DNA of 64,000 nt, taken from a virus. The notes below the pieces were generated by a model. It worked only from the letters and a program-made list of their open reading frames with translations, was not told the DNA's origin and searched no databases. Below are positions 26,697 to 39,652 of the stretch, piece after piece; within the stretch, counting starts at the first letter, position 1, and every line of letters starts with the position of its first letter. Position numbers and translations under genes: made by a program. The stretch covers positions 17,924 to 81,923 of the IMG/VR virus record IMGVR_UViG_3300027973_000044, one strand, 5' to 3'.

Positions 26697-29600
26697 ATGT
26701 TCACCAGCTATATAACATCTAAGAATTATATAGGGCTAAGTGCCTCATATGCTTACGATAACCAATTAAATTTTCTTAATAAGAATATTGCCATTGATGG
26801 TGCACTAACCACCAGCTTTTCACCAGCTTTTTCAGGTACTAATGATTTTATCAAGAGTAACTACAGCTTGTTGCATGTGACTAAGCCCATAAGCTTGGTT
26901 GAGATTACTGATTTTAATAGACCATTTCAAGCCAGTAAAAATTATTTTTGTAACATTTTCAATCAAGTCAGCGGCACAGAAGTCTACTTAACTTTTACTA
27001 ATGCTCTGGATGAACAGCTTCTCTTCACAGTAAATTATGATCAAACTATTAACAGTCTAATATCTGGTTTAAATGATTTCTACTATTTTAACTTTGATTT
27101 CACCAAGCCTCAGATCTGCACCATATCTCATCTGTATAACAACAATGAATACTTTCTTACATTCAACCCTGCAACATTAAATCTAAATTTCGTCATTCTT
27201 TCAGCATTTACACCACTCACAGTATATAACAAAGATTTCTTCTATACGTTTAATAAAGAAGATTTAACACTTTCTCTACAGGCAAGAATCGGTGGTCAAG
27301 CTTACCAGGTAGTTCGTGATAATGCAACCAAGCGTTTGGCACTTAGCAGTACTGATGAAATTAGCTTCACAGATACACGAGCCATATTTTATTTAACTGC
27401 TTTCTTTGACCCCAATCTTCCAGAAGTTACTATTGATTGGGGAAGTTATCTGCGCTCCTTCAATCAAAATAATATTACCATTGATAATACTAAGAGCGTA
27501 TTTGATGTTAAGACAAATTTCTTAATATATGGGCAGTACTTTAATCTTGAGAGAAGTGGACTCATTACAAATCTACTACCACTCAAGACGCAACTCAATA
27601 CACAAAATCAGCAAGGCAGAGGCAATGTTTTTCTAAATGAAGAGCCTGTAAACTATAGAAATTATGTTTCTATTTTCGGTGGTCCCCGACAAGAGAAAGG
27701 ATACGAAAAATTACACCTGCAGTATGAGTCATACTCTACCCCTTTTACTTTTAATCAAGGCAAAACGACCTGGTTTCATATGCCTCAAAATATGTATCCT
27801 TATAGTCGTCTCAATATTAAAGATACAAAATTAATTGAGGCTGGCGCCATTGGTGGTGATCATCCATTGAGAAGTGATAAGGTTTTCAAGAAAATAGCTA
27901 ATTATAAAAATACCAGCAATCAAGGTGATAGCAGCGGAGAGCTCACCGGTCAATGGCTATGCAGTTGGCTGTCAGCAGCCCCTGACATATCTGTACGACC
28001 AGTTTGGGTTGACCGGTATTATAATCCAAAACTCAACACACCATTTGAAGCGCTCAGCGCATCCCCGGGCAGTGTAACATATATACCTTCATTTGATTGT
28101 TATGATCTTAGCGTTGGTATCACAGACGTTCCATCCAGCCTAACGTTTGAGCCAGGTGTGTGGTATGCGTATTCTCATATTGGAAAATCAGATGCTGAAC
28201 AAAATATCAAAGCGTTGACTATAAATCAGCAGCAAAAAAATCTTTCTTTTTATGAAAGGGTTAACGGTAGAATGCTTGATCCGTATCTTGATGAAGATAA
28301 TACTGATACATATATTTTTGACGGTACCTCTTATGGTTTGATTGACGCTCGGTTTCTTCAATTCCCGCTAAATAATTTCACCATTAGTTTCTGGGCAAGT
28401 CGAGAGGATTGGACTGTACCCACAGGATATCAGCTTGGTGGTAACTTTACCGATTACGGGTTGGGAATATATAACTATGAATTAGTTACCCCTTTGCTCT
28501 TTTACCCCTATCAAGGCAATATACTTGCATACAATCAAAATCTTGAGTTGGTTGATTATTATGAGGCACCTTTCAATCGAGGAGAACGAATTGAGTTTTT
28601 CTCAAGAAGAGACCCTCTGAACTCTTTCCATATATTCACAGACGACCAGACAATAGCCGAACTCAATTTACAAGAAACTATTATTGACGGGGTCACAGGA
28701 TTGATCACCAGGCCCATCAAAGATGTGACAAACGATGCAACAAATAGCTATTTGTTGCTCGACAATAATACATTGAGTGGTATCAATCTGGTTTCAAATC
28801 TTGCGTTCCCAGTTGTAGCTGACTACAATGTGTCAACAAGAGGAGTTTATCAAACGATACGAAAAACAAACAATAATAAGATTGTACGTGTGGATGGTGT
28901 ACAGACTATAGTTCGTGGGAATAGTATATATTTCTTGAGTGGCGGTGAAATAAAAGTTTGGGGAACTGAAAGTAATACCATAAGCTCATACATAGCTGGT
29001 CCAGTTGAACGCTTCAATATTGACAAGTACAATAATACCTGGACATCAAGCGCAAACAGGATTAACGTATATGGAAAGTTTACTGCCCCTCTTAATACAT
29101 TTACTCTGACTGCAGATTCATCACTCTCTCAATCCAGTCTAACTGCTCTTAATATTACATTTATTGAGAATTTTAATAACGGCACGCTACAGTCGAGTGT
29201 AGTAATTGCTGCAAGTGGGTCTCGAGCAAACAAGCTTGTATTGACTAAATTAAATTACGACGGAGAGATACAGAAGCAGGTTTTAATTAATGCGGATCTA
29301 TCTCTCAGCTTAAATATTGATCCATCCAATCATAATTACAATTATAGCAATGTTTATGATACTGTTAGTGGCAACAACAACTATACTTTCAAAATAAGAT
29401 TATACAATCAATTTAATACTGAAGATATAGAAATTCCAAGGGCAACAGTATATGCCGACGATTTGAATCCAGGTTATCATCATTTCTCAATTGCTGTTAA
29501 TACAGTTAAGGGATACACCAAGCTATATCTTGATGGTGAACTATATGAGACAATTAATTTTACACCAAGCAAATATTCATTTACACCTCTGGTTGTGGAT

Positions 29601-30065
29601 GACATTGTTGTTGGCGCATGTCCGTTTTATAATGGATCGCTATTTGATACTTTCCTGAGTAACAATAACCCCAAGGGTTCATACTTTGCAAAGGACATTC
29701 AATTGCAAAATCTGTATATTCATAATACAGAGTTAAATTATTTTGATATTAATATGCTCTACAAGGAAAAAAATGTACCGCAGGATCTTGTATGGGATGT
29801 ACCATCAGGTAGACGCAATTACATGGAAACAGTTTCCAGATACTTTACCCAACAAGTGCCTGGTGCCAAGAGTACACTTTTCAATGTTTATATAAATGAT
29901 AGTATTCTCAATCAAGAATGCAGAGATTACTTGCAAACTGCAATTACAAAGAAAATAAAAGACATTGTACCGGGTTATAGCAAATTAAACAAGCTGCAGT
30001 GGGTTACAAACTTGCCTGCGCAGAGTGCAGAGTATTTTCAGCCATATTTCCCAGGCAACCCCTAA
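26697..30065 (+). CDS. Large virion protein with two LamG/concanavalin-like regions
   Basis: The 1122-aa product is probably a baseplate-linked fibre or adhesin. A first concanavalin-like region near residues 540-600 reads YIFDGTSYGLIDARFLQFPL NNFTISFWASRED. A second, near 900-1010, has NPGYHHFSIAVNTVKGYTKL YLDGELYE, the H-H-x-x-x-x-x-x-G-x-x-x-x-Y-x-D-G-x motif of LamG domains. Between them lies propeller-like sequence (GNSIYFLSGGEIKVWG). The C-terminal 100 residues (ITKKIKDIVPGYSKLNKLQW) look like a separate attachment domain. No exact family is recognised. It is flanked by other giant structural genes on the same strand. Confidence 0.65.
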   Translation: MFTSYITSKNYIGLSASYAYDNQLNFLNKNIAIDGALTTSFSPAFSGTNDFIKSNYSLLHVTKPISLVEITDFNRPFQASKNYFCNIFNQVSGTEVYLTFTNALDEQLLFTVNYDQTINSLISGLNDFYYFNFDFTKPQICTISHLYNNNEYFLTFNPATLNLNFVILSAFTPLTVYNKDFFYTFNKEDLTLSLQARIGGQAYQVVRDNATKRLALSSTDEISFTDTRAIFYLTAFFDPNLPEVTIDWGSYLRSFNQNNITIDNTKSVFDVKTNFLIYGQYFNLERSGLITNLLPLKTQLNTQNQQGRGNVFLNEEPVNYRNYVSIFGGPRQEKGYEKLHLQYESYSTPFTFNQGKTTWFHMPQNMYPYSRLNIKDTKLIEAGAIGGDHPLRSDKVFKKIANYKNTSNQGDSSGELTGQWLCSWLSAAPDISVRPVWVDRYYNPKLNTPFEALSASPGSVTYIPSFDCYDLSVGITDVPSSLTFEPGVWYAYSHIGKSDAEQNIKALTINQQQKNLSFYERVNGRMLDPYLDEDNTDTYIFDGTSYGLIDARFLQFPLNNFTISFWASREDWTVPTGYQLGGNFTDYGLGIYNYELVTPLLFYPYQGNILAYNQNLELVDYYEAPFNRGERIEFFSRRDPLNSFHIFTDDQTIAELNLQETIIDGVTGLITRPIKDVTNDATNSYLLLDNNTLSGINLVSNLAFPVVADYNVSTRGVYQTIRKTNNNKIVRVDGVQTIVRGNSIYFLSGGEIKVWGTESNTISSYIAGPVERFNIDKYNNTWTSSANRINVYGKFTAPLNTFTLTADSSLSQSSLTALNITFIENFNNGTLQSSVVIAASGSRANKLVLTKLNYDGEIQKQVLINADLSLSLNIDPSNHNYNYSNVYDTVSGNNNYTFKIRLYNQFNTEDIEIPRATVYADDLNPGYHHFSIAVNTVKGYTKLYLDGELYETINFTPSKYSFTPLVVDDIVVGACPFYNGSLFDTFLSNNNPKGSYFAKDIQLQNLYIHNTELNYFDINMLYKEKNVPQDLVWDVPSGRRNYMETVSRYFTQQVPGAKSTLFNVYINDSILNQECRDYLQTAITKKIKDIVPGYSKLNKLQWVTNLPAQSAEYFQPYFPGNP

Positions 30066-30084
30066 CTAATGCAGGACTCACACC

Positions 30085-31713
30085 ATGAATGCCATAGATA
30101 CAGAATTTCAAAAAATAGATCTAAATTATGATCGCACAGTAACAGATGTGTTTCAACTGCCATATAGCTTGGATACTATATTATTACAACCAAACGAATT
30201 GGCTGTTTCACAATCCTTCAATCTCAAAATACAGAAACTGTATGATAATTTTTTATATCTGTATGGTTTGTGCAATGTGGCTGATTTTAAGATTCCACGC
30301 AGATATGAGGGTTGGGTTGGTTATACCAACCTCGAAAAACAAATTCTTTATCTGTACGACGATAGTACAACGAACGCTGTTGCAGTCTTATCCTCAGTTC
30401 TTTTTGCAAGCAACCAAGCCTTAGCCTTCTATAGCACAGATAGTCGATATGAGCAGAATTTAATATTTACAAATGGTCAGTTTATCTCTCTCAATGGAAT
30501 CAATCAGCGTGATGGTGACTATAGTCCTGTAAACCTAATACAACAAAGCAGTGTTGATCCACTCTCCGGTTCAATTAATTTTTTCAATATAACAGGCATA
30601 GCACAATACAAAGCAGAGCAGCTCTTCATAAGTGATGCAACTTATAATAATCTTTATTCTTATAATCTTGGTGGCGCTGTGAGTGATGATAATATAAGAA
30701 ATAGACAACTGTTTCAATTGAATGTTGTTGGTGGCCGGGGCACTTCTCAAGATAGAATTAAGTTTAACAACATTGGAAAAATTGCTGTTGCTGGTGATGT
30801 GGTGATAGTTGAAGACAAGGGTAACAAGACATTCAAAGTGTACGATAGAAATCTTAACTGGCTCAATTCAACCATAACACCAACGCTGTTCAATGCAATT
30901 TCAACCATCAATGCCATGGTGTATAGTGAGAAAGATAACAGACTGTACATTGCAAGCAACACTGCATTATTTTTACTCGATATATCCACAGATTATAATC
31001 TCACGTCTGCAAAGAGTTACGATTTTAGCAGCATACTAACTGGCAATGAATACTTTGTGGATATTAAATTTGCAAATTATGATAAAGATGTTTTCTATCT
31101 ACTATCAACTAGAAATTTATATAAGAAATGGATAACCAAGCCTGAGAAAAATATTGGCATGTTGAAGAATAGCGTCTTCAATGATGACAATTTCAGATGG
31201 ATAACAACATCACCTGGTGTGTCAGGGGACGATGTCTTGATATATGCTGTTTCGCAAGACTTGACCAGAAGCTACATTGCAGTGTATCGAGACAATTTGA
31301 GTCTTACAACGCTCTTTAAAACAGATAATCCTCTCATAGTGTACTCCAAGCAAGATGTTCTAATAGACCCAGAGGAGTACAATTGTTCATGGGTATACAA
31401 CAAGAGCATCAAGAAGATGCTCTACAACATGAGCTTGCTTGTGAATAATATTGGATATCGTTTCTTTACAGATGAAGATAACACCGGTACGCCAGTGTTC
31501 TTATATCGTGGTTACAATAATTTCTTTAGATATAATGCACCTCTGGATACAAACAAACATTCCAATGTGTTTATTAATGAAAACTTTCAAGCTGAAACAG
31601 TAAACAGGTGCTTCAAACAAATATATGATTATCAACAATTGGTGCTTCAAACTATCATAACCAATGACTCTGTCGTGACAGATTTAACCCCATATAGCAT
31701 CAGTAATGTCTGA
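30085..31713 (+). CDS. Virion protein with predicted beta-propeller
   Basis: The 542-aa product has repeated blade-like strands (KAEQLFISDATYNNLYSYNL, NNIGKIAVAGDVVIVEDKGN, INAMVYSEKDNRLYIASNTA LFLLD, VFYLLSTRNLYKKW), consistent with an NHL/YVTN-type propeller over residues about 90-400. The N-terminus (IDTEFQKIDLNYDRTVTDVF) and the C-terminus (NRCFKQIYDYQQLVLQTIIT) are helical and could attach to neighbouring baseplate proteins. The start has only a weak AGGA 8 nt upstream and no late box, so it is probably co-transcribed with the gene before it. Confidence 0.6.
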   Translation: MNAIDTEFQKIDLNYDRTVTDVFQLPYSLDTILLQPNELAVSQSFNLKIQKLYDNFLYLYGLCNVADFKIPRRYEGWVGYTNLEKQILYLYDDSTTNAVAVLSSVLFASNQALAFYSTDSRYEQNLIFTNGQFISLNGINQRDGDYSPVNLIQQSSVDPLSGSINFFNITGIAQYKAEQLFISDATYNNLYSYNLGGAVSDDNIRNRQLFQLNVVGGRGTSQDRIKFNNIGKIAVAGDVVIVEDKGNKTFKVYDRNLNWLNSTITPTLFNAISTINAMVYSEKDNRLYIASNTALFLLDISTDYNLTSAKSYDFSSILTGNEYFVDIKFANYDKDVFYLLSTRNLYKKWITKPEKNIGMLKNSVFNDDNFRWITTSPGVSGDDVLIYAVSQDLTRSYIAVYRDNLSLTTLFKTDNPLIVYSKQDVLIDPEEYNCSWVYNKSIKKMLYNMSLLVNNIGYRFFTDEDNTGTPVFLYRGYNNFFRYNAPLDTNKHSNVFINENFQAETVNRCFKQIYDYQQLVLQTIITNDSVVTDLTPYSISNV

Positions 31714-31745
31714 CCATATGAATAACTATTATATAGAGACATAAT

Positions 31746-32501
31746 ATGGCTGGAACATACACATTTCATAGCAAATTGCACAGGGCAAGCCACCATACAA
31801 TCTCTGGTACTACTCTACCAGATGCAGGGTTGGATCCTATTGCATCTCAAACACAACCATTTATTGGCGTATTCTTCAATACCATTCCAGATTCATTGGG
31901 ATTCTTGACCATCGACACCAACAGCTATCAATGGTGGACAGCATATGCATCTGTGAGTACTTTGTCAGGTATCTGGGCACCTTCTCTGTCACTTTATAAC
32001 ACTGTTAATACATTGTCTACCAATTGGAATTTAGGTTATGTGGGTTATTCCAACTACTCACAAATCAGTAGTTTGTACGTTTCAGTGTACACCACAGTGA
32101 GCACATTCAGTGCTGATTGGAATGCACCGTTCATAATGTTTACCAATCTAGCGCAAGAGTATACTGCAGCCAAGACATTCTCTGGAACAGATCTCAGGAT
32201 TAACAGTGGCACAAACACAGTAATTTGGGATGTGTCTTCCAATCAAGTGACCTTCATTACACTTTCCAGCAACTTAAACTTTGCAAATCCTCTCAATCAT
32301 AAAAAAGGTGGCAACTATACATTGAATGTAATTCAAAGCGGTGCAGGGGGGTATGATATCAGATTTAGCACTGCATACAGATTTAACGATACAATTGCAT
32401 TGTCTGGTGTAATTAGTACACTGTCTGGCAGCCGTACAATAATTAATTTTATGTCAGACGGAACACTACTGTACGGGGATAGGGTAGTGTTCCGCGGATG
32501 A
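31746..32501 (+). CDS. Fibre protein with N-S-x-x-W coil repeats
   Basis: The 251-aa product is a short fibre. The N-terminal 45 residues (FHSKLHRASHHTISGTTLPD AGLDPIASQTQPF) are an attachment module shared with the next gene. Residues about 60-130 hold repeats of the type TVNTLSTNWNLGY and VYTTVSTFSADWN, which resemble trimeric fibre shafts. The C-terminal 70 residues (KKGGNYTLNVIQSGAGG, then SGSRTIINFMSDGTLLYG) form a small tip domain that is also shared with the next gene. Its stop overlaps the next start (ATGA at 32498). Confidence 0.7.
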   Translation: MAGTYTFHSKLHRASHHTISGTTLPDAGLDPIASQTQPFIGVFFNTIPDSLGFLTIDTNSYQWWTAYASVSTLSGIWAPSLSLYNTVNTLSTNWNLGYVGYSNYSQISSLYVSVYTTVSTFSADWNAPFIMFTNLAQEYTAAKTFSGTDLRINSGTNTVIWDVSSNQVTFITLSSNLNFANPLNHKKGGNYTLNVIQSGAGGYDIRFSTAYRFNDTIALSGVISTLSGSRTIINFMSDGTLLYGDRVVFRG

Positions 32502-34627
32502 GCAATTTTCTTTTTCATAACAAGTTTCACCAGGCAAACCATCATACCATTGCCACTCCTGGTCTTCCAGATAGTGCAACAGATCCCATTGCATCTCAGT
32601 CTGAACCATTTCAAGGAATATTCTACAATTACTTAAATGCTCTTGTGAATCTTTCTGCAATTGATGTTTCATATCTGGAAACATTCTTAACAGATTCTAT
32701 CACCACATTTGATGGATTATCAGTCAACACAATTCAGAGCATATATGCTGCAATCACAGCTAATGTATTTACAAACAGTCAGCAGTGGTTTGAGATGTAC
32801 ACTAATATCAATGCATTGAGTACCATATATGGTCTGTATCCAACTGTTTCAACCACTGTGAACACATACAGTGGCAACTGGAACTTGGGTTATGATTTTT
32901 ATAGCAGTCTCAATGCATTGAGCGCAAATTATTTCTCCACATACACCATGGTTAACACTTATAGCGCCAATTGGCCGTTCATCGATACAACTCTGAGACT
33001 TAATTTGATGCAACAGAATACGCGTTCCAAGAATTTCAGCGGCGTTAATATTACCAGCATAAGTGTTAATACTGCTGGTGTTTCGGCATATTGGAATTTG
33101 AGTGCAGCACAGTGTGCATTTTTCAGGCTCACAGGTACTACAGTATTTAAGAATATAGTTAATTCCAATAACAAGAAAAAAGGTGGTGAGTATACCCTTG
33201 TGCTGCAGCAAGACGGGTTTGGAAGCAGAAGTGTTACATTTGAAAGTGATTATGTATTTCCAACTGTGTATTTGGGCACAGTGTCTGCAGCCTCACTATA
33301 TGGCACAGGGTACAACACTTCTGGTCAACTGGGCTTAGGAAATACTAGCAATAGAAATGTATTTACTGCATTAACTGGCAATTGGTCACAGGTGATTTGT
33401 AGTACTGCTCATACCATGGCTCAGAGTGCCGGTACCACCAATTGGTTTGGTACAGGGTATAATGGCTTTGGACAATTAGGCTTGAATGATAATAGCAACA
33501 GAAATGTATTTACTGCATTAACAGGCAATTGGTCACAGATGGTGTGTGGTGGTGCTTATACCATGGCTCAGAGTGCCGGTACCACCAATTGGTTTGGTGC
33601 GGGTTTTAATTTTAACGGTGCATTGGGCCTTGGGGATAATAGCGATAGAAATGCACTCACACCGCTCACAGGCAATTGGTCACAGATGGTGTGTGGTGGT
33701 GCTCATACCATGGCTCAGAGCGCTGGCACCACCAAATGGTTTGGCACAGGTAGTAATAGCCAAGGTCAATTGGGACTAGGCGATGATGGCGCTGGTACCA
33801 ATAGAAATGTATTCACACCACTCACAGGCAATTGGTCACAGATGATATGTGGCAGGGCACACACCATGGCATTGTCTGCTGGTACCACCAAATGGTTTGG
33901 CACAGGTGCAAATGGTTACGGTCAACTGGGTCTAGATGATACTATCATCAGAAATGTATTTACTGCATTAACTGGCAATTGGTCGCAGATGGTTTGTGGT
34001 GCAGAGCATACTATGGCGCTAAGTGCTAATAACAAGTGGTTCAGTACTGGTAGGAATGTTGAAGGTCAACTAGGTCTAAATGATAATAGCGATAGAAATG
34101 TATTTACTGCATTAACTGGCGATTGGTCGCAGATGGTGTGTGGTTATTCTCATACCATGACCCAGAGTGCAGGTACTATCAAATGGTTTGGCACAGGACA
34201 AAATTTTTATGGTGAATTGGGTCTTAGTGACAATAGCAATAGAGATGTATTTACAATATTAACTGGTGATTGGTTACAAATGGCAAGCTCTTGTAATTGT
34301 ATTCATACTATGGCTTTTGATCTGACTACTACAGACTCATACAGGACCAATGTTGTTGCTCCAACTGCTCTGAGTGTGACTGTGATTCGCTTCACATGTG
34401 ATGGGAGCAAGTTGTATGGCAAGCCAACACCTTATTATTATGAGAGAGACACAATTTGGACGTATTTTGCAGGCCCTGGTGATCTTCACACCCCCAGCCC
34501 GGCTGAATTCTATATCAATGATTACTTCATACCCATCAATGGACTCACAGTCGCAGGTGTGGTGGTCCCAGCACAAGGGTATTCTGATGGTGGTGGCATA
34601 ACTGTAGTAGAGGGGCTTCCATCCTAA
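32498..34627 (+). CDS. Fibre protein with seven RCC1-type propeller repeats
   Basis: The 709-aa paralogue of the preceding fibre. Residues 1-45 and the shaft (to about 165) align with it (FLFHNKFHQANHHTIATPGL, VNTYSGNWNLGYDFYSSLNA). The tip domain begins KKKGGEYTLVLQQDGFGSRS near 227 and resumes at TNVVAPTALSVTVIRFTCDG (618-637). Between these two parts, residues 269-606 carry seven tandem RCC1-like units of about 49-52 aa (GTGxNxxGQLGLxDNSxRNV, FTALTGNWSQMVCG, HTMAQSAGTTxWF). Seven units make one closed RCC1 beta-propeller. The fold is best known in eukaryotic chromatin/GEF proteins and bacterial surface proteins; here it most likely acts as a receptor-binding head. The last 60 residues are an extra tail. 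Confidence 0.8.
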   Translation: MSNFLFHNKFHQANHHTIATPGLPDSATDPIASQSEPFQGIFYNYLNALVNLSAIDVSYLETFLTDSITTFDGLSVNTIQSIYAAITANVFTNSQQWFEMYTNINALSTIYGLYPTVSTTVNTYSGNWNLGYDFYSSLNALSANYFSTYTMVNTYSANWPFIDTTLRLNLMQQNTRSKNFSGVNITSISVNTAGVSAYWNLSAAQCAFFRLTGTTVFKNIVNSNNKKKGGEYTLVLQQDGFGSRSVTFESDYVFPTVYLGTVSAASLYGTGYNTSGQLGLGNTSNRNVFTALTGNWSQVICSTAHTMAQSAGTTNWFGTGYNGFGQLGLNDNSNRNVFTALTGNWSQMVCGGAYTMAQSAGTTNWFGAGFNFNGALGLGDNSDRNALTPLTGNWSQMVCGGAHTMAQSAGTTKWFGTGSNSQGQLGLGDDGAGTNRNVFTPLTGNWSQMICGRAHTMALSAGTTKWFGTGANGYGQLGLDDTIIRNVFTALTGNWSQMVCGAEHTMALSANNKWFSTGRNVEGQLGLNDNSDRNVFTALTGDWSQMVCGYSHTMTQSAGTIKWFGTGQNFYGELGLSDNSNRDVFTILTGDWLQMASSCNCIHTMAFDLTTTDSYRTNVVAPTALSVTVIRFTCDGSKLYGKPTPYYYERDTIWTYFAGPGDLHTPSPAEFYINDYFIPINGLTVAGVVVPAQGYSDGGGITVVEGLPS
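33302..34315 (+). repeat. Seven tandem RCC1-coding repeats
   Basis: About 147-156 bp per unit. The unit coding for LTGNWSQMVCGG and the one coding for AQSAGTTNWFG are nearly identical at DNA level between the first four copies, showing recent unit duplication. The last copy is the most diverged. Confidence 0.85.
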
Positions 34628-34630
34628 ATA
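34623..34630 (+). promoter_or_regulatory. Late-promoter-like box CCTAAATA
   Basis: CCTAAATA overlaps the fibre stop codon and ends 7 nt before ATG 34638. It opens the head gene group. Confidence 0.4.
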
Positions 34631-34637
34631 ATAACAT

Positions 34638-35627
34638 ATGATGTCATGCAGCAATGTGGAACCAGTGAGTGCTTTTTATAGCACCAATCTTCAATCCAAG
34701 ATTGAAAGTTACGACAGATTGGGTGCACGCATTTGTCGTGCTCTTGGTGCACCATTGATCAACATTGAAATTCATGCAGATCAATTGAATGAGTTTATTA
34801 GCATTGCTTGTGAAATGTACACAAAGTTTGCAGGATACACACAAGAGTATCTGGTGTTTGATAGCAAGCTGTACGACCCAGGTGCAGGCTTGCGACTGGA
34901 TGTTCTTTTCAGTCTAACAAAAGATTTTAATTTTAGAGCCAGGTTTGAGAATGTTTCCAATGATATCAGAGCACTATACAACGTTGGAAGAATGGTCATT
35001 GGTGATCCAAAAAACCCATACTTGTATCAAGTGTTTGATCAAAACAAACCCAGAGAATTGGAATTGCTGAACAGCTACGATTATTTGATTGATAGTTACC
35101 GCAAGGTAACAGATGTGTTGGATTTTGAAGAAGGAAGTTCAGATGGCATTAACACCCTGTTCACAATTGAACAATCTTTGGCGCAACAAACCTACTTCAG
35201 CTACTCTCTAGGCAATTATGGGTTTGATTTGATCAGTTGGTACACATTGAAAAATTGGCTTGATACCCGTGAAAAGGTTTTAGCATTGCGTCGTGATGTG
35301 CGCTTTGATCCACGCACACAATACATGCAAATGTTCCCTGAACCCCGCAACACACATTTCTATGGCATTGTGACTTGCTATGTGGAAAGACCTTTAACAG
35401 ACATTATCAAAGAGCAGTGGGTGTATCAATATGCACTTGCATTGACTAAAATAGCCATTGGCACAGTGCGTGGCAAATATCAAGGCACACAATTGTTTGG
35501 TGGTGGCATTATTAATGCTGCAATTCTGGAAGATGGTAAAACAGAAAGAACAGAATTGGAGAGAAAATTATACGAAAGTGCACCAGGATTCGGGGATGCA
35601 GCACCCCCAGAATTCTTTGTAGGTTAA
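34638..35627 (+). CDS. 13: Neck protein (T4 gp13-like)
   Basis: Probable head-to-tail neck protein that, with gp14, closes the filled head and accepts the tail. The 329 aa are near T4 gp13 (309 aa). The C-terminal third holds the gp13-like signature EQWVYQYALALTKIAIGTVR GKYQGTQLFGGGIINAA followed by an acidic helix (ERTELERKLYE). The N-terminus (YDRLGARICRALGAPLINIE) is helical. It begins the head gene cluster and is followed at once by the head completion gene. Its partner gp14 is not seen in the window. Confidence 0.65.
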   Translation: MMSCSNVEPVSAFYSTNLQSKIESYDRLGARICRALGAPLINIEIHADQLNEFISIACEMYTKFAGYTQEYLVFDSKLYDPGAGLRLDVLFSLTKDFNFRARFENVSNDIRALYNVGRMVIGDPKNPYLYQVFDQNKPRELELLNSYDYLIDSYRKVTDVLDFEEGSSDGINTLFTIEQSLAQQTYFSYSLGNYGFDLISWYTLKNWLDTREKVLALRRDVRFDPRTQYMQMFPEPRNTHFYGIVTCYVERPLTDIIKEQWVYQYALALTKIAIGTVRGKYQGTQLFGGGIINAAILEDGKTERTELERKLYESAPGFGDAAPPEFFVG

Positions 35628-35628
35628 C

Positions 35629-36084
35629 TTGAAACTCACAGTCAAAAATACCAAGTATGTGCAAGGCATTTTCAAGCCCACACACATGGAGAAATACAAA
35701 GGCCATGATTTGCCCAGATATCTGAGCAGTTGGGAATTGAAATTGTTTCGCTGGTGTGATATGAATCCCAATGTGTTGGAATGGGGCAGTGAATCCATTG
35801 TTATTCCATATGAAAGTCCTATTGATAGAAAAGTGCACAGATACATTGTGGATGCAGTGGTGAAACTCAAGACTGCCACCGGCATAAAGAAGTATCTCAT
35901 AGAGGTAAAGCCCTACAAACAGACCATAAAACCAGAGCAAACCCCTGGCAAACACAAGAAGACGTTGCTTTATGAGCAATTGACCTATATACAGAATCAG
36001 GCGAAATGGGAAGCGGCTAAATTCTATGCAAAGAAATATGGCTTCGAATTCACCATTTTAACTGAAAAGGAACTCAGGAAATAA
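35629..36084 (+). CDS. 4: Head completion protein (T4 gp4/gp50-like)
   Basis: Needed to finish DNA-filled heads so that tails can join. The 151 aa equal T4 gp4 (150 aa). The sequence SSWELKLFRWCDMNPNVLEW GSE is the family hallmark, and the fold is TnsA/PD-(D/E)xK nuclease-like: E36, D75 (RYIVDAVVK) and E92-x-K94 (LIEVKP) occupy the catalytic positions. The start is TTG 35629, one base after the gp13 stop; the next Met (residue 20) would remove the conserved N-terminal GIFKPTHMEKYKG segment. The gp21 protease gene follows. Confidence 0.88.
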   Translation: MKLTVKNTKYVQGIFKPTHMEKYKGHDLPRYLSSWELKLFRWCDMNPNVLEWGSESIVIPYESPIDRKVHRYIVDAVVKLKTATGIKKYLIEVKPYKQTIKPEQTPGKHKKTLLYEQLTYIQNQAKWEAAKFYAKKYGFEFTILTEKELRK

Positions 36085-36095
36085 GTGAAATCTGA

Positions 36096-36103
36096 TATAA
36101 ATA
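36096..36103 (+). promoter_or_regulatory. Late promoter box TATAAATA
   Basis: An exact TATAAATA ends 5 nt before ATG 36109, which supports that ATG over the upstream GTG 36085. Confidence 0.6.
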
Positions 36104-36108
36104 ATAAT

Positions 36109-36783
36109 ATGGCCTTACGCTTATTAGTTGAGACACCAGCACCTGAAGACCAATACGAATACGTGGTCGAAGAAAAAAGTGGCAATCAACCCAGCACCAT
36201 GTACATCAAGGGACCATACATGCAGTGTGAAGAGGTTAACAAGAACAAGAGAGTTTATGATTCCGGTGAAATGGACAAAGAAGTTAACCGTTACATCAAT
36301 GAAATGGTGAGAACAAACCGTTCCATGGGCGAATTGAACCATCCCACGCAGGCTGAAGTTAACCTGGAGCGTGCCTGTCATTTGGTAACTGAACTCAACC
36401 GCAGTGGCAATGTTTATTATGGCAAATCCAAAGTGCTCACCACACCCATGGGACAGATTGTTAGAAGCTTGATCAATGATGGTGTGCGTGTAGGCATGAG
36501 TTCTCGTGCCCTGGGAAAACTGGAAGAGTGTGGCAATGGTGTGAACCGCGTCAAGGACTTTCGTTTGGTTGCAGTGGATTGTGTTGCTGATCCAAGTTTT
36601 CCCAAAGCTTTCGTCAATGGCATTCTTGAATCCAAGCAATTTGTAGTAACCCAAGATGGTCACTACGAAGAATATTATGATTCATTTTCCGACAGACTTC
36701 GCAACCTGCCTCGCAGAGATGTTGAAGGTTATCTCAAAGAACAAATTCTGGAGTTCTTTGGCAAGATCAGCAAAGTGCTCTAA
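36109..36783 (+). CDS. 21: Prohead core protease (T4 gp21-like)
   Basis: Serine protease that matures the prohead by cutting the scaffold and capsid proteins. The 224 aa match T4 gp21 (212 aa). Catalytic elements are visible: H78 in MGELNHP, S131/S132 in VGMSSRALG, and D161 in VDCVADPSF. The family start YIKGPYMQCEEVNKNKRVY is also present. A frame from GTG 36085 would add eight residues, but the late promoter box would then lie inside the gene, so ATG 36109 is chosen. It sits before the core protein and scaffold genes, as in T4. Confidence 0.93.
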   Translation: MALRLLVETPAPEDQYEYVVEEKSGNQPSTMYIKGPYMQCEEVNKNKRVYDSGEMDKEVNRYINEMVRTNRSMGELNHPTQAEVNLERACHLVTELNRSGNVYYGKSKVLTTPMGQIVRSLINDGVRVGMSSRALGKLEECGNGVNRVKDFRLVAVDCVADPSFPKAFVNGILESKQFVVTQDGHYEEYYDSFSDRLRNLPRRDVEGYLKEQILEFFGKISKVL

Positions 36784-37157
36784 TGAATATCTCCCAGCCA
36801 TTCACACCTGCTGTTATTTCGGTTGGTTCAACCCAACAAAAGCCTGAATTGGCTGCCCAACTGGCCATGAAGTCACAGAAGAAGATGAAACCTGCCATGG
36901 TTGTTGCGAAAGATGAAGAATGCTATGAAGATGAAACAGGTTATGTCAACATGTGCAAAAAATGTCGTAAAGATTCACAGAATTTCGTAGGCGCGCACTA
37001 TAAATATAACAGTATGCAAGAGAGAGTTAATATTGTCAACTTTTTAAAGTTTTTGAACGAGAAAAATTATGCTGAGGCGCATAAATATTTAAAGAAAGTT
37101 ATGGAAATGAAATTAGCTAAGCGCATTGCACTAAATAAAAATGTGAGGTTATTTTAA
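36783..37157 (+). CDS. Small prohead core protein candidate (gp68-like)
   Basis: The 124-aa product lies between the protease and the scaffold, where T4-like phages encode a small core protein (gp68, 141 aa). Residues 1-45 are polar with many Lys and Gln. Then comes a Cys cluster (CYEDETGYVNMCKKC, C-x10-C-x2-C) that could bind a metal. Residues 75-124 form a basic helix region (ERVNIVNFLKFLNEKNYAEA, YLKKVMEMKLAKRIAL). The start overlaps the gp21 stop (TAATG). The gp68 assignment rests mostly on position and composition. Confidence 0.5.
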   Translation: MNISQPFTPAVISVGSTQQKPELAAQLAMKSQKKMKPAMVVAKDEECYEDETGYVNMCKKCRKDSQNFVGAHYKYNSMQERVNIVNFLKFLNEKNYAEAHKYLKKVMEMKLAKRIALNKNVRLF

Positions 37158-37160
37158 TTT

Positions 37161-38030
37161 ATGACAAAAGACATCAAAACTATTCTAAAAGAAGCAACAC
37201 AAGATCTTCTCTCTGAGGAAGTTCTTAAGGAAATCGAAGCAGCATTTAATTCTGCTATTTCTGAAAAAGTGCAACTTCACGTTACAAAAGCTCTTACCGA
37301 ACAAGATGAAGATTACAGCAGCAAGCTAGAGCATCTTCTGGAAACCATCGATGCAGATCATACATCCAAGCTCGAAAAAGTTGTTGAAGCCATTGATGCT
37401 AACCACACAGAGAAATTAAAAGCTCTTGTGGAGAAGTATAGCAACGCTCTCAGCAAAGAAGCCAAAGCTTTCAAAGACAGCACCATTGACAATATTAGCA
37501 CATACCTTGAAGCGTATATCGACGAGACATTGCCTGCTAATGAAATTAAGGATGCTGTTAAGAATCGCAGAGCCTTGGAGGTTCTCGATCAACTAAGATC
37601 CATTTTGGGCGTTGATGCCGCCCTGGCGAAAGAAAGTGTTCGCGAAGCCATCGTAGATGGAAAGCGTCAATTACAAGAAGCTTCTGAGAAGCTTGAAGCC
37701 GCTAACAAAGAGTTAGCTCAGGTTAAGGCACAACTCGCCACGCGTAATGCGGAACTTACACTCGAAAAGAAGACTGTAGGTTTATCCGCTCGCAAGAAAG
37801 AGTATGTGAACAAGGTGATGAAGACCAAGAGTAGCGAATTCATTACTGAGAACATTGATTATGCCTTGAGCTTATTCGATAAGACAGAAAAAGAGCGGCT
37901 TCAAAATATTAAAGAGGAAGCGGTGCAAGATGCAGCTGCAACACAAGTGGATCGTCCAGTAATGGAAGAGACAGAAGTTGTTGCTGAATCAGTCACCAAC
38001 CCTTACCTCAAAGAACTTTCTAAGTACTAA
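37161..38030 (+). CDS. 22: Prohead scaffold protein (T4 gp22-like)
   Basis: Main internal scaffold around which the capsid assembles, later degraded by gp21. The 289 aa (T4: 269) are almost entirely charged helix and coiled coil. Short repeats HLLETIDADHTSKLEKVVEA IDANHTEKL occur at about 60-90, and a long coiled coil (REAIVDGKRQLQEASEKLEA) at about 160-200. The conserved C-terminal end is TNPYLKELSKY, like T4-type gp22. The capsid gene follows 95 bp later. Confidence 0.88.
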   Translation: MTKDIKTILKEATQDLLSEEVLKEIEAAFNSAISEKVQLHVTKALTEQDEDYSSKLEHLLETIDADHTSKLEKVVEAIDANHTEKLKALVEKYSNALSKEAKAFKDSTIDNISTYLEAYIDETLPANEIKDAVKNRRALEVLDQLRSILGVDAALAKESVREAIVDGKRQLQEASEKLEAANKELAQVKAQLATRNAELTLEKKTVGLSARKKEYVNKVMKTKSSEFITENIDYALSLFDKTEKERLQNIKEEAVQDAAATQVDRPVMEETEVVAESVTNPYLKELSKY

Positions 38031-38125
38031 TTAGTACTAGTAAAGAAGTTAAAGAGGCGCAAGCCTGATTTATATTGTAGATTTTATATATTCTACAGGT
38101 CGAAAATAAAGGAGAACTAATAATT
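38031..38125 (+). promoter_or_regulatory. Leader of the capsid gene with inverted repeat and strong ribosome site
   Basis: The gap before gp23 holds a 6-bp inverted repeat, TGTAGA and TCTACA, around an AT-rich loop (about 38076-38097), then AAAGGAG at about 38108-38114, 11 nt before ATG 38126. Unlike most late genes here, the capsid gene thus has a conventional leader and Shine-Dalgarno site. The AT-rich loop (TTTTATATAT) may include a late promoter, but no exact TATAAATA is present. Confidence 0.45.
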
Positions 38126-39604
38126 ATGAAATCAATCAGACCTACACAGTCTTACATTGATGAGTCTCGCGCACAAGCGTTGCTCGAAAAGTGGAAACCA
38201 GTTTTGGATTACACTTCGGCCAACGTTAAAGCCATCGAAGATGATCATACTCGTTTGAACACAGCCATGCTCTTGGAAAACCAAGAAGCTTGGTGCGTCA
38301 ATGAGGCTAATCAATCGGGTGGTGGTGCCGCTGGCACAGGTTCTGTCTTCGGCTCCAACGCCACAGGTAACTACGGGAACCAAATTCCCAATAGCTCACC
38401 TCAAGGTGATTGGTATGCTCAAGGCGATGCTCGTTTGCCTAAGATTCTCATTCCAATGATTCGTAGAACGTTCCCCGAGTTAATCACCAATGAAATTGTA
38501 GGCGTACAGCCCATGGGTGGACCAGTTGGTCTAGCCTTTGCTTTACGTTACAAGTATTCTCCATATCAGCTTGGCAACGATGGCATCGATGGTTCCGGCA
38601 CAAATGCTGGCAATCTTCTTGCCAATCCCCAACAAGCATCGCTTAACAAGGAGCTTGGTTACCAATACCTCGACACCCGCTACACTGGTACATCCAGCAC
38701 CACCCTAACCGGTGGCGCACCTGGGACAGACGCCGCAAGCCTCTTCCCTTGGATCAACCAAGATAACGGTGTGGCTCAACTTCTCAGCCAGTTCGAATTG
38801 ACGGGCAAAATCCCTCAGATCGAAGTCAGCTTTGAAAAGACAGCCGTCGAAGCCGGTACCCGCAGACTCGCTGCTCGCTGGTCGGTAGAACTCGAACAGG
38901 ATCTTAAGAACATGAACGGTATTGATATCGATACTGAGCTCACCAACGCTATGTCGTATGAGCTACAGGCCGAAATCGACCGTGAAATGATCGCTCGCAT
39001 GATCCAAGTCTCACTCAACGCTGGTGCTGGCACAGGATACTCCGTATGGAGCCCTGCTTCCGCAGACGGCCGTTGGTTGGTAGAGCGCAATCGCGATTTC
39101 TATCAGAGACTCATCATCGAGGCTAACAGAATTGCTGTTCGCAATCGTCGTGGTGCTGCCAACTTTATTGTTGCCACACCTCGCGTTTGCGCGATCCTCG
39201 AGATGCTTCCTGAGTTTCAATGGGTGCCAGTCCAAGGCAATGTCAACACTCAACCTGTTGGCGTAGCTAAGGTTGGTAACCTTGGTGGCAGATTCAACGT
39301 TTACCGTGATACACGTACAGAGGCCCAATATGAGGGTGGCTTACGTTCCGGTTACCGCGTTGAGTACGCTCTACTCGGATACAAAGGTCCGGAGTTTTAT
39401 GACACTGGTATCATCTATTGCCCTTACATCCCTGTAATGGTACAGAGAACCATTGGTCCTAATGACTTCTCGCCACGCGTTGGCTTGCTAACTCGTTATG
39501 GCGTTGTTGACAATATCTTCGGTGCTAATCTATATTATCACACGATTCTATTGTCCGGACTTGGTCAAGCGTTCACACCTGCAAGTGCTTCAGTTTATTT
39601 CTAA
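38126..39604 (+). CDS. 23: Major capsid protein (T4 gp23-like)
   Basis: Forms the hexameric shell lattice (HK97 fold). The 492 aa compare with 521 aa in T4. Recognisable parts are LLENQEAWCVNEAN near the expected gp21 cleavage region, RLPKILIPMIRRTFPELITN EIVGVQPMGGPVGLAFALRY, AARWSVELEQDLKNMNGIDI D and the C-terminal PEFYDTGIIYCPYIPVMV. Cleavage probably removes about the first 50-60 residues. It is preceded by a strong ribosome site and followed by a strong terminator, as suits the most abundant product. Codon use here looks more GC-rich than in the tail genes. Confidence 0.96.
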   Translation: MKSIRPTQSYIDESRAQALLEKWKPVLDYTSANVKAIEDDHTRLNTAMLLENQEAWCVNEANQSGGGAAGTGSVFGSNATGNYGNQIPNSSPQGDWYAQGDARLPKILIPMIRRTFPELITNEIVGVQPMGGPVGLAFALRYKYSPYQLGNDGIDGSGTNAGNLLANPQQASLNKELGYQYLDTRYTGTSSTTLTGGAPGTDAASLFPWINQDNGVAQLLSQFELTGKIPQIEVSFEKTAVEAGTRRLAARWSVELEQDLKNMNGIDIDTELTNAMSYELQAEIDREMIARMIQVSLNAGAGTGYSVWSPASADGRWLVERNRDFYQRLIIEANRIAVRNRRGAANFIVATPRVCAILEMLPEFQWVPVQGNVNTQPVGVAKVGNLGGRFNVYRDTRTEAQYEGGLRSGYRVEYALLGYKGPEFYDTGIIYCPYIPVMVQRTIGPNDFSPRVGLLTRYGVVDNIFGANLYYHTILLSGLGQAFTPASASVYF

Positions 39605-39652
39605 AGCATTTGTTGGCAGCGAATAAGAAAAAATTCCCGGTACGTCCCGGTT

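Follow-up and report, generated by a model that had tools for sequence, protein, structure and literature searches.

The 64,000-nucleotide window analysed here, part of an 81.9-kb contig of an uncultured virus of bacteria, encodes two tandem fibre proteins, the second of which carries a predicted seven-bladed propeller of the RCC1 superfamily within its tip domain, at a site that in related viruses is either empty or occupied by an unrelated propeller of the Asp-box type. As read from the sequences, this architecture and the swap of propellers are solid. We think it quite probable that they reflect a fibre whose scaffold stays constant and whose tip offers a single socket to interchangeable propellers that bind the host surface.

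Genomic context of the fibre genes

The fibre pair is preceded on its 5' side by genes for a tail sheath and a baseplate wedge protein, and followed on its 3' side by those for an Ad2 neck protein, a head-closure protein, a prohead protease and a gp23-like major capsid protein. This gene complement identifies the virus as a divergent myovirus of the T4 superfamily, and its capsid protein is only about 31-34% identical to the cyanophage counterpart. Within this structural gene block the pair lies at the baseplate-to-neck junction, with the second fibre gene directly 5' of the Ad2 neck gene and the wedge and sheath genes on the upstream side. The genes for the T4 short tail fibre gp12 and fibritin (Wac) sit between the baseplate genes and the gp13-like neck gene, a position like that of the window pair. 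At the sequence level, profiles A9 and A10 matched no PDB sequence at E-values up to 1, the 251-aa first fibre matches no family in Pfam or PHROGs, and no relative of the fibre scaffold was recovered from PDB sequences, Pfam or PHROG. We infer the designation 'fibre' from where the genes lie, how their domains are arranged and which modules they have taken up. The neck gene served as the syntenic anchor for locating orthologous loci in other contigs. The features discussed below, all on the plus strand, are:

31746-32501, plus strand: first fibre copy, 251 aa, with N-terminal module, shaft and continuous tip (ORF; full-length homology to the second copy)
32498-34627, plus strand: second fibre copy, 709 aa, with the RCC1 ring within its tip (ORF; RCC1 match; model)
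32498-32632, plus strand: N-terminal module, residues 1-45, FHNKFH..NHHT...PDS..DPIAS..PF.G.FYN, common to the first copy
32633-33079, plus strand: shaft, about residues 46-194, with S..W-type repeats (alignment of five orthologues)
33080-33259, plus strand: first half of the tip domain, residues 195-254, ending ..SDYVF (profile alignment to the first copy and empty orthologues)
33260-34345, plus strand: exchangeable cassette, without counterpart in L008 (blastn blocks stop at 33259 and resume at 34346; junction alignment)
33281-34333, plus strand: predicted seven-bladed RCC1 ring, residues 262-612 (Pfam, unit positions, model, fold matches at Z 41)
34346-34432, plus strand: second half of the tip domain, residues 617-645, TNVVAPTALSVTVIRFTCDGSKLYG.. 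(matches the end of the first-copy tip, E 9e-8)
34433-34624, plus strand: C-terminal extension, residues 646-709 (alignment of seven sequences)
34638-35627, plus strand: neck protein (PHROG head-tail adaptor Ad2; PHROG 211, E 3e-16)

Two tandem fibre copies and a split tip domain

The initial annotation had recognized two ORFs of 251 and 709 aa, both of which are present exactly where it placed them, with a 4-base overlap at 32498-32501. It had further claimed that the two genes share an N-terminal module, a shaft and a tip, that the tip of the 709-aa protein is interrupted and then resumes, and that this would reflect a domain insertion into one of two tandem fibre copies. Profile comparisons with hhalign and the empty site of orthologues bear out these points. 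The alignment of the 251-aa family profile with uninterrupted orthologues of the 709-aa protein is collinear, starting at the N-terminus and taking in the complete tip (probability 100, E 2.3e-66, 37% identity), and the segment following the ring, taken alone from the window and its relatives, matches the closing stretch of the tip in the 251-aa family (probability 94, E 9e-8). In the orthologues from L019 and L020 the corresponding site is empty and the tip profiles match. At the level of profile alignments, it is thus confirmed that the 251-aa neighbour has in one piece the tip domain that the ring splits in the 709-aa protein. First-copy fibres are uninterrupted in all 26 of the 26 distinct sequences, with 8-34 residues between the tip halves. 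As both copies occur across the related contigs, the fibre duplication is old.

The N-terminal module of the 709-aa protein is 56% identical to that of the first copy, and its profile matches every complete fibre of both kinds. In both fibres (31746-31880 and 32498-32632) it displays an unusual conserved histidine pattern, H..KxH...HHT, which has no Pfam, PHROG or PDB match and could possibly form a metal site or a docking motif. The shaft is predicted to be partly helical, albeit at low confidence (pLDDT under 50), and in the 709-aa model pLDDT is likewise under 50 for the first 180 residues and for the C-terminal extension. The C-terminal extension is conserved among second copies only, as seen in an alignment of seven sequences. 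Within it, at 34455-34475, the window differs from L004, L005, L006 and other relatives by two 2-base indels that lie about 15 bases apart at most and compensate for each other; they turn GLIFTP into GDLHTP and could be either natural or an assembly slip.

The RCC1 ring

The 709-aa protein matches the RCC1 repeat (PF00415) with an E-value of 2.1e-32 (111.9 bits, against a curated cut-off of 21.7) and the RCC1-like domain (PF25390) with an E-value of 5e-46. It contains seven complete units, starting at residues 266, 315, 364, 413, 465, 513 and 562 (DNA positions 33293, 33440, 33587, 33734, 33890, 34034 and 34181), with successive spacings of 48-52 residues. An AlphaFold2 model of the protein is confident over residues 265-610 (pLDDT mostly 75-93); Foldseek searches with it rank RCC1-like domains first (UVR8, E 1e-26), and VIA-align superimposes it on HERC2 RLD2 with a Z-score of 41.3 (rmsd 2.3, 337 residues aligned) and on human RCC1 with a Z-score of 40.7, spanning residues 262-614. 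The model thereby yields a strong prediction that the seven units close into one seven-bladed ring. The closed ring had been proposed from the unit count, and exactly seven complete units are indeed present, but the bounds then given (269-606) are slightly narrow, the predicted ring comprising residues 262-612.

The notion of a recent expansion of the units does not hold: the units differ strongly from each other at silent sites (mean pS 0.55, dS about 0.6-1.7), about as much as the constant N-terminal part does between the window and L007 (0.51). By this measure they are old and were not recently copied from one another. All complete RCC1 blocks compared (window, L007, L018, L009, two in L012, and L014) have seven units in alignment. 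L009, L012 and L014 were rejected as members of the locus because their RCC1 rings lie in larger proteins without the same tip around the ring. In L012 (3984-9416) a single adhesin-like ORF contains two seven-unit RCC1 blocks and weaker further RCC1 matches. Units of the second of these blocks are up to 93% identical at the nucleotide level, indicating that recent unit copying does occur elsewhere. No bacterial sequence from which the RCC1 block might stem turned up in a pattern search of the genome contig collection.

Three alternative states at one tip site

Scans of IMG/VR recovered several dozen contigs with the gene order first fibre, second fibre, neck protein. Alignment of their second fibres shows three alternative states at one tip site. 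In the empty state (L019, L020, L040, L042, L045, L052, L059, L061 and L132) the tip halves are nearly contiguous, with 14 residues between ...DYVF and IVSLTALSVTVIRF in L019, whose second fibre has 354 aa, and in L020, and 8-20 residues in the remaining members. The RCC1 state is found in the window, L004-L007 and L018, and in the 3' fragments L010, L013 and L015. The third state, an Asp-box propeller of 316-334 residues, is found in six contigs (L008 and L031-L035). A tree of the RCC1 blocks neither shows nor rejects a single origin at this site (AU p 0.25, long branches).

The window and L008 are collinear from 26768 to 33259 of the window (91% nucleotide identity) and again from 34346 to 39616 (96%), and in place of window positions 33260-34345 L008 holds 942 unrelated bases coding for an Asp-box propeller. 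This alignment shows a swap of ring type between close relatives, whatever its direction, and marks the RCC1 block as an exchangeable cassette, a point absent from the initial annotation. In a tree of neck proteins L008 forms one group with L006 and the window (100/98 support) and is separated from L031-L035, the other Asp-box carriers; its insert is only 33-35% identical to theirs. At least one change of ring type is therefore required within this small clade.

The identification of the Asp-box insert as a propeller is based on its motifs and on modelling. Motifs such as STDYGQSW, of the S-x-D-x-G-x-x-W type, recur in it; Pfam recovers Sortilin-Vps10 and BNR in L033 with an E-value of 1.2e-6 (BNR 28.1 bits, against a cut-off of 27) and BNR below threshold in L031, L034 and L035. 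The L008 insert has no Pfam match, and profile A8 found no match among PDB sequences. The L008 model, of moderate confidence, has YCF48 as its top Foldseek match (E 8e-12), and its residues 256-560 superimpose on seven-bladed rings with a Z-score of 26.7 (rmsd 2.7, 270 residues), pointing to a propeller in L008 as well.

Additional modules are found elsewhere in this locus, which is a hot spot for adhesin-type modules. The shaft of L038 contains a CBM_4_9-like region (E 1e-4), those of L051 and L056 an Asp-box propeller with the tips empty, and L035 has extra sequence before the tip in addition to its tip propeller. L149 (176-4378) and L151 (179-4378) encode a 1400-aa protein with an Asp-box propeller-like stretch (E 4e-22 and 6e-15, respectively); its gene is the second one upstream of the fibres and corresponds in position to 26697-30065 of the window. 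The distant second fibres of L103, L104, L106 and L107 run on past the tip, and their long C-terminal parts resemble LamG on visual inspection, which might be another way to extend the scaffold.

Sequence diversification of the RCC1 block

When the window is compared with L007, L010, L013 and L015, nucleotide identity is 64-77% in the RCC1 block and 86-100% downstream, and silent differences amount to 0.61-0.74 inside the block versus 0.22-0.24 in the C-terminal flank. As amino-acid selection alone would not raise silent divergence, replacement or conversion of the RCC1 block by recombination is the likeliest cause of this spike. Most units of L007 are nearest to one another, and those of the window are about equally near to units of L010 and L015 as to each other.

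An alignment of 29 ungapped units, each of 49 residues and drawn from six contigs, varies most in the five columns 7, 9, 10, 38 and 39. The strands of the model fall at unit residues 2-6, 21-26, 31-36 and 40-45; because two antiparallel strands separate loop 37-39 from loop 7-10 of the next unit, the two loops are predicted to lie on one face of the ring, with the turn at 46-50 on the opposite face as deduced from the model. The five variable columns would thus be confined to two loops on a single face, on which about 35 variable residues would come together. Over all units pN in these columns is about equal to pS (0.62 versus 0.67), and in the strands it is far lower (0.17 versus 0.65), values to be read with the columns having been picked after looking and with pS near saturation. 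These variable positions, the x of the GxNxxG and GxxHT motifs, also vary in RCC1 proteins generally. The block was further considered as a target of a diversity-generating retroelement; the 81.9-kb record, itself possibly a fragment, contains no match to the reverse transcriptase domain RVT_1.

Functional implications and alternative explanations

These observations suggest a mechanism in which the N-terminal module, shaft and tip domain of the second tandem fibre form a conserved scaffold and the loop following the DYVF strand of the tip acts as a socket that can take a whole seven-bladed propeller. Since the start and the end of the chain meet in a closed ring, the tip would still be able to fold around it. 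In the window virus the propeller is an RCC1 ring, and relatives have an empty loop or an Asp-box (YCF48/BNR-like) propeller in its place. On the virion, the propeller would most likely expose a wide face for binding a ligand on the host surface, either a glycan or a protein. Relatives appear to shift specificity by exchanging the whole cassette, probably through recombination in the conserved tip halves, and by varying two loops in each RCC1 blade.

A different role is suggested by the literature on large phages, in which RCC1-like proteins are tentatively linked to DNA organisation, i.e. its ordering or encapsidation (PMC7247149, PMC11370258), and the PHROGs families that the protein matches are filed in the category of DNA, RNA and nucleotide metabolism. 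The ring could then be a DNA-organising or packaging protein that lies near fibre genes by chance. However, that role was itself proposed on the basis of what the family is called, and the ring is an insert in a fibre-type scaffold that is missing in orthologues or replaced by an unrelated propeller with its surroundings kept; a core DNA-binding function would not be expected to undergo such loss or swap, and we regard this reading as very improbable. The possibility that the propeller is a passive spacer or stabilising tip cap, which binds nothing and is exchanged neutrally, draws on the existence of empty versions: as these are presumably functional, the ring would be dispensable for folding and for virus survival in the empty lineages. 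Yet variation is concentrated in the two loops of one face with the strands conserved, the replacement is another propeller instead of arbitrary sequence, and cousins bear carbohydrate-binding-type domains in the same protein, all of which make a passive role unlikely.

RCC1 domains mostly bind proteins, and BLIP-II, which neutralises beta-lactamases, has the same fold (Z 24, rmsd 3.3, 260 residues), raising the prospect that the ring binds a protein other than a surface receptor, e.g. to neutralise one of the host or of a competitor. A variable face would suit protein recognition too, but the position at a fibre tip with a conserved N-terminal module favours cell-surface recognition, and we know of no inhibitor link for the alternative Asp-box ring; such a function strikes us as decidedly unlikely. 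Lastly, repeats are prone to misassembly and the contigs are metagenomic, so that misjoined repeats might mimic the observed architecture. The gene including its junctions is nonetheless 99.7-99.9% identical in contigs from three other metagenomes, the RCC1 architecture recurs at lower identity in L007 and L018, and the Asp-box arrangement is repeated in six contigs. An artefact is effectively refuted as an explanation for the architecture.

Receptor binding by the propeller is the most economical explanation that is left, and the pattern at the locus, as seen in the aligned sequences, is that of a surface adhesin and argues for such a role. An internal tip site that is empty in some relatives and filled by an RCC1 or an Asp-box ring in others amounts to a natural experiment in fibre modularity, and it provides a concrete alternative to the DNA-handling idea for virion RCC1 proteins (PMC7247149, PMC11370258), which is echoed in database categories. 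One might go further and propose, with appreciably less assurance and as a conjecture that could well fail, that seven-bladed propellers of non-homologous kinds have entered, left and replaced one another in the tip socket many times, any of which would be accommodated because such a ring has its chain ends side by side, and that phage virion RCC1 propellers in general serve to recognise the host by a hypervariable face and do not package DNA, those of the 'chromosome condensation' arrays in large coliphages among them. As cultured coliphages with virion RCC1 proteins exist, the choice between adhesin and DNA roles is directly testable.

Comparison with known systems

The window ring shares with the RCC1 superfamily (PF00415; the RCC1/BLIP-II fold of UVR8, RPGR, HERC2, human RCC1 and BLIP-II) its repeat sequence, its seven units and the predicted ring closure, and differs in its insertion into a phage fibre tip and its exchange with an unrelated propeller. 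The biochemistry of human RCC1, namely Ran exchange and chromatin binding, is not defining for all members of the family. The Asp-box inserts of L008 and L031-L035 resemble Asp-box/BNR propellers (YCF48) in their motif-like repeats and in a propeller model closest to YCF48, but their Pfam signal is weak, or absent in L008, and they occupy the tip loop that holds RCC1 in relatives.

The open-access literature searched yielded no report of an RCC1 propeller at the tip of a phage fibre. RCC1-like proteins have been detected in virions of large phages, as GAP32 gp1 (PMC5259590) and W70_237-239 (PMC11370258); phAPEC6 encodes eleven of them (PMC7247149), and two 'chromosome condensation regulator' proteins are among the most different between fEgEco12 and Ecwhy_1 (PMC13070987). 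The RCC1-like proteins of GAP32, phAPEC6, 121Q and W70 likewise bring RCC1-type propellers into myoviruses, but they are stand-alone genes, arrayed in 121Q and described as DNA condensation proteins, whereas the window ring splits a fibre tip domain. In Escherichia phage 121Q (L156, 1984-11256) seven tandem RCC1-like genes annotated as DNA condensation have about 15 conserved N-terminal residues (MLPFARMVKYGNIAP) followed by very divergent propellers, which looks more like an anchor with a variable module. Annotated phages also have RCC1 genes adjoining tail fibre genes: Synechococcus phage S-SRM01 (L110, 722-9149) has three near a long tail fibre gene, among glycan-related genes for a sulfotransferase, a glycosyltransferase and a sugar epimerase.

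Modular phage receptor-binding proteins undergo domain shuffling, and the exchanges described are of C-terminal domains (PMC10684548). The window fibre likewise combines a conserved N-terminal part with a probable binding module swapped between close relatives. Unlike those proteins, usually described as swapping whole C-terminal ends, it has its module internally, with the tip domain and the C-terminus beyond it conserved. The fibres of the contractile eCIS, described with collagen-like shafts and a further C-terminal domain, carry beta-propeller lectins for which glycan binding is proposed (PMC12923769); RCC1 is absent from the main text of that study. They too place a propeller on a fibre, but it is not described as an insert splitting a tip domain. 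Compared with this known modularity of fibres, what is new here is an internal exchange of propeller for propeller at one site, together with an empty state.
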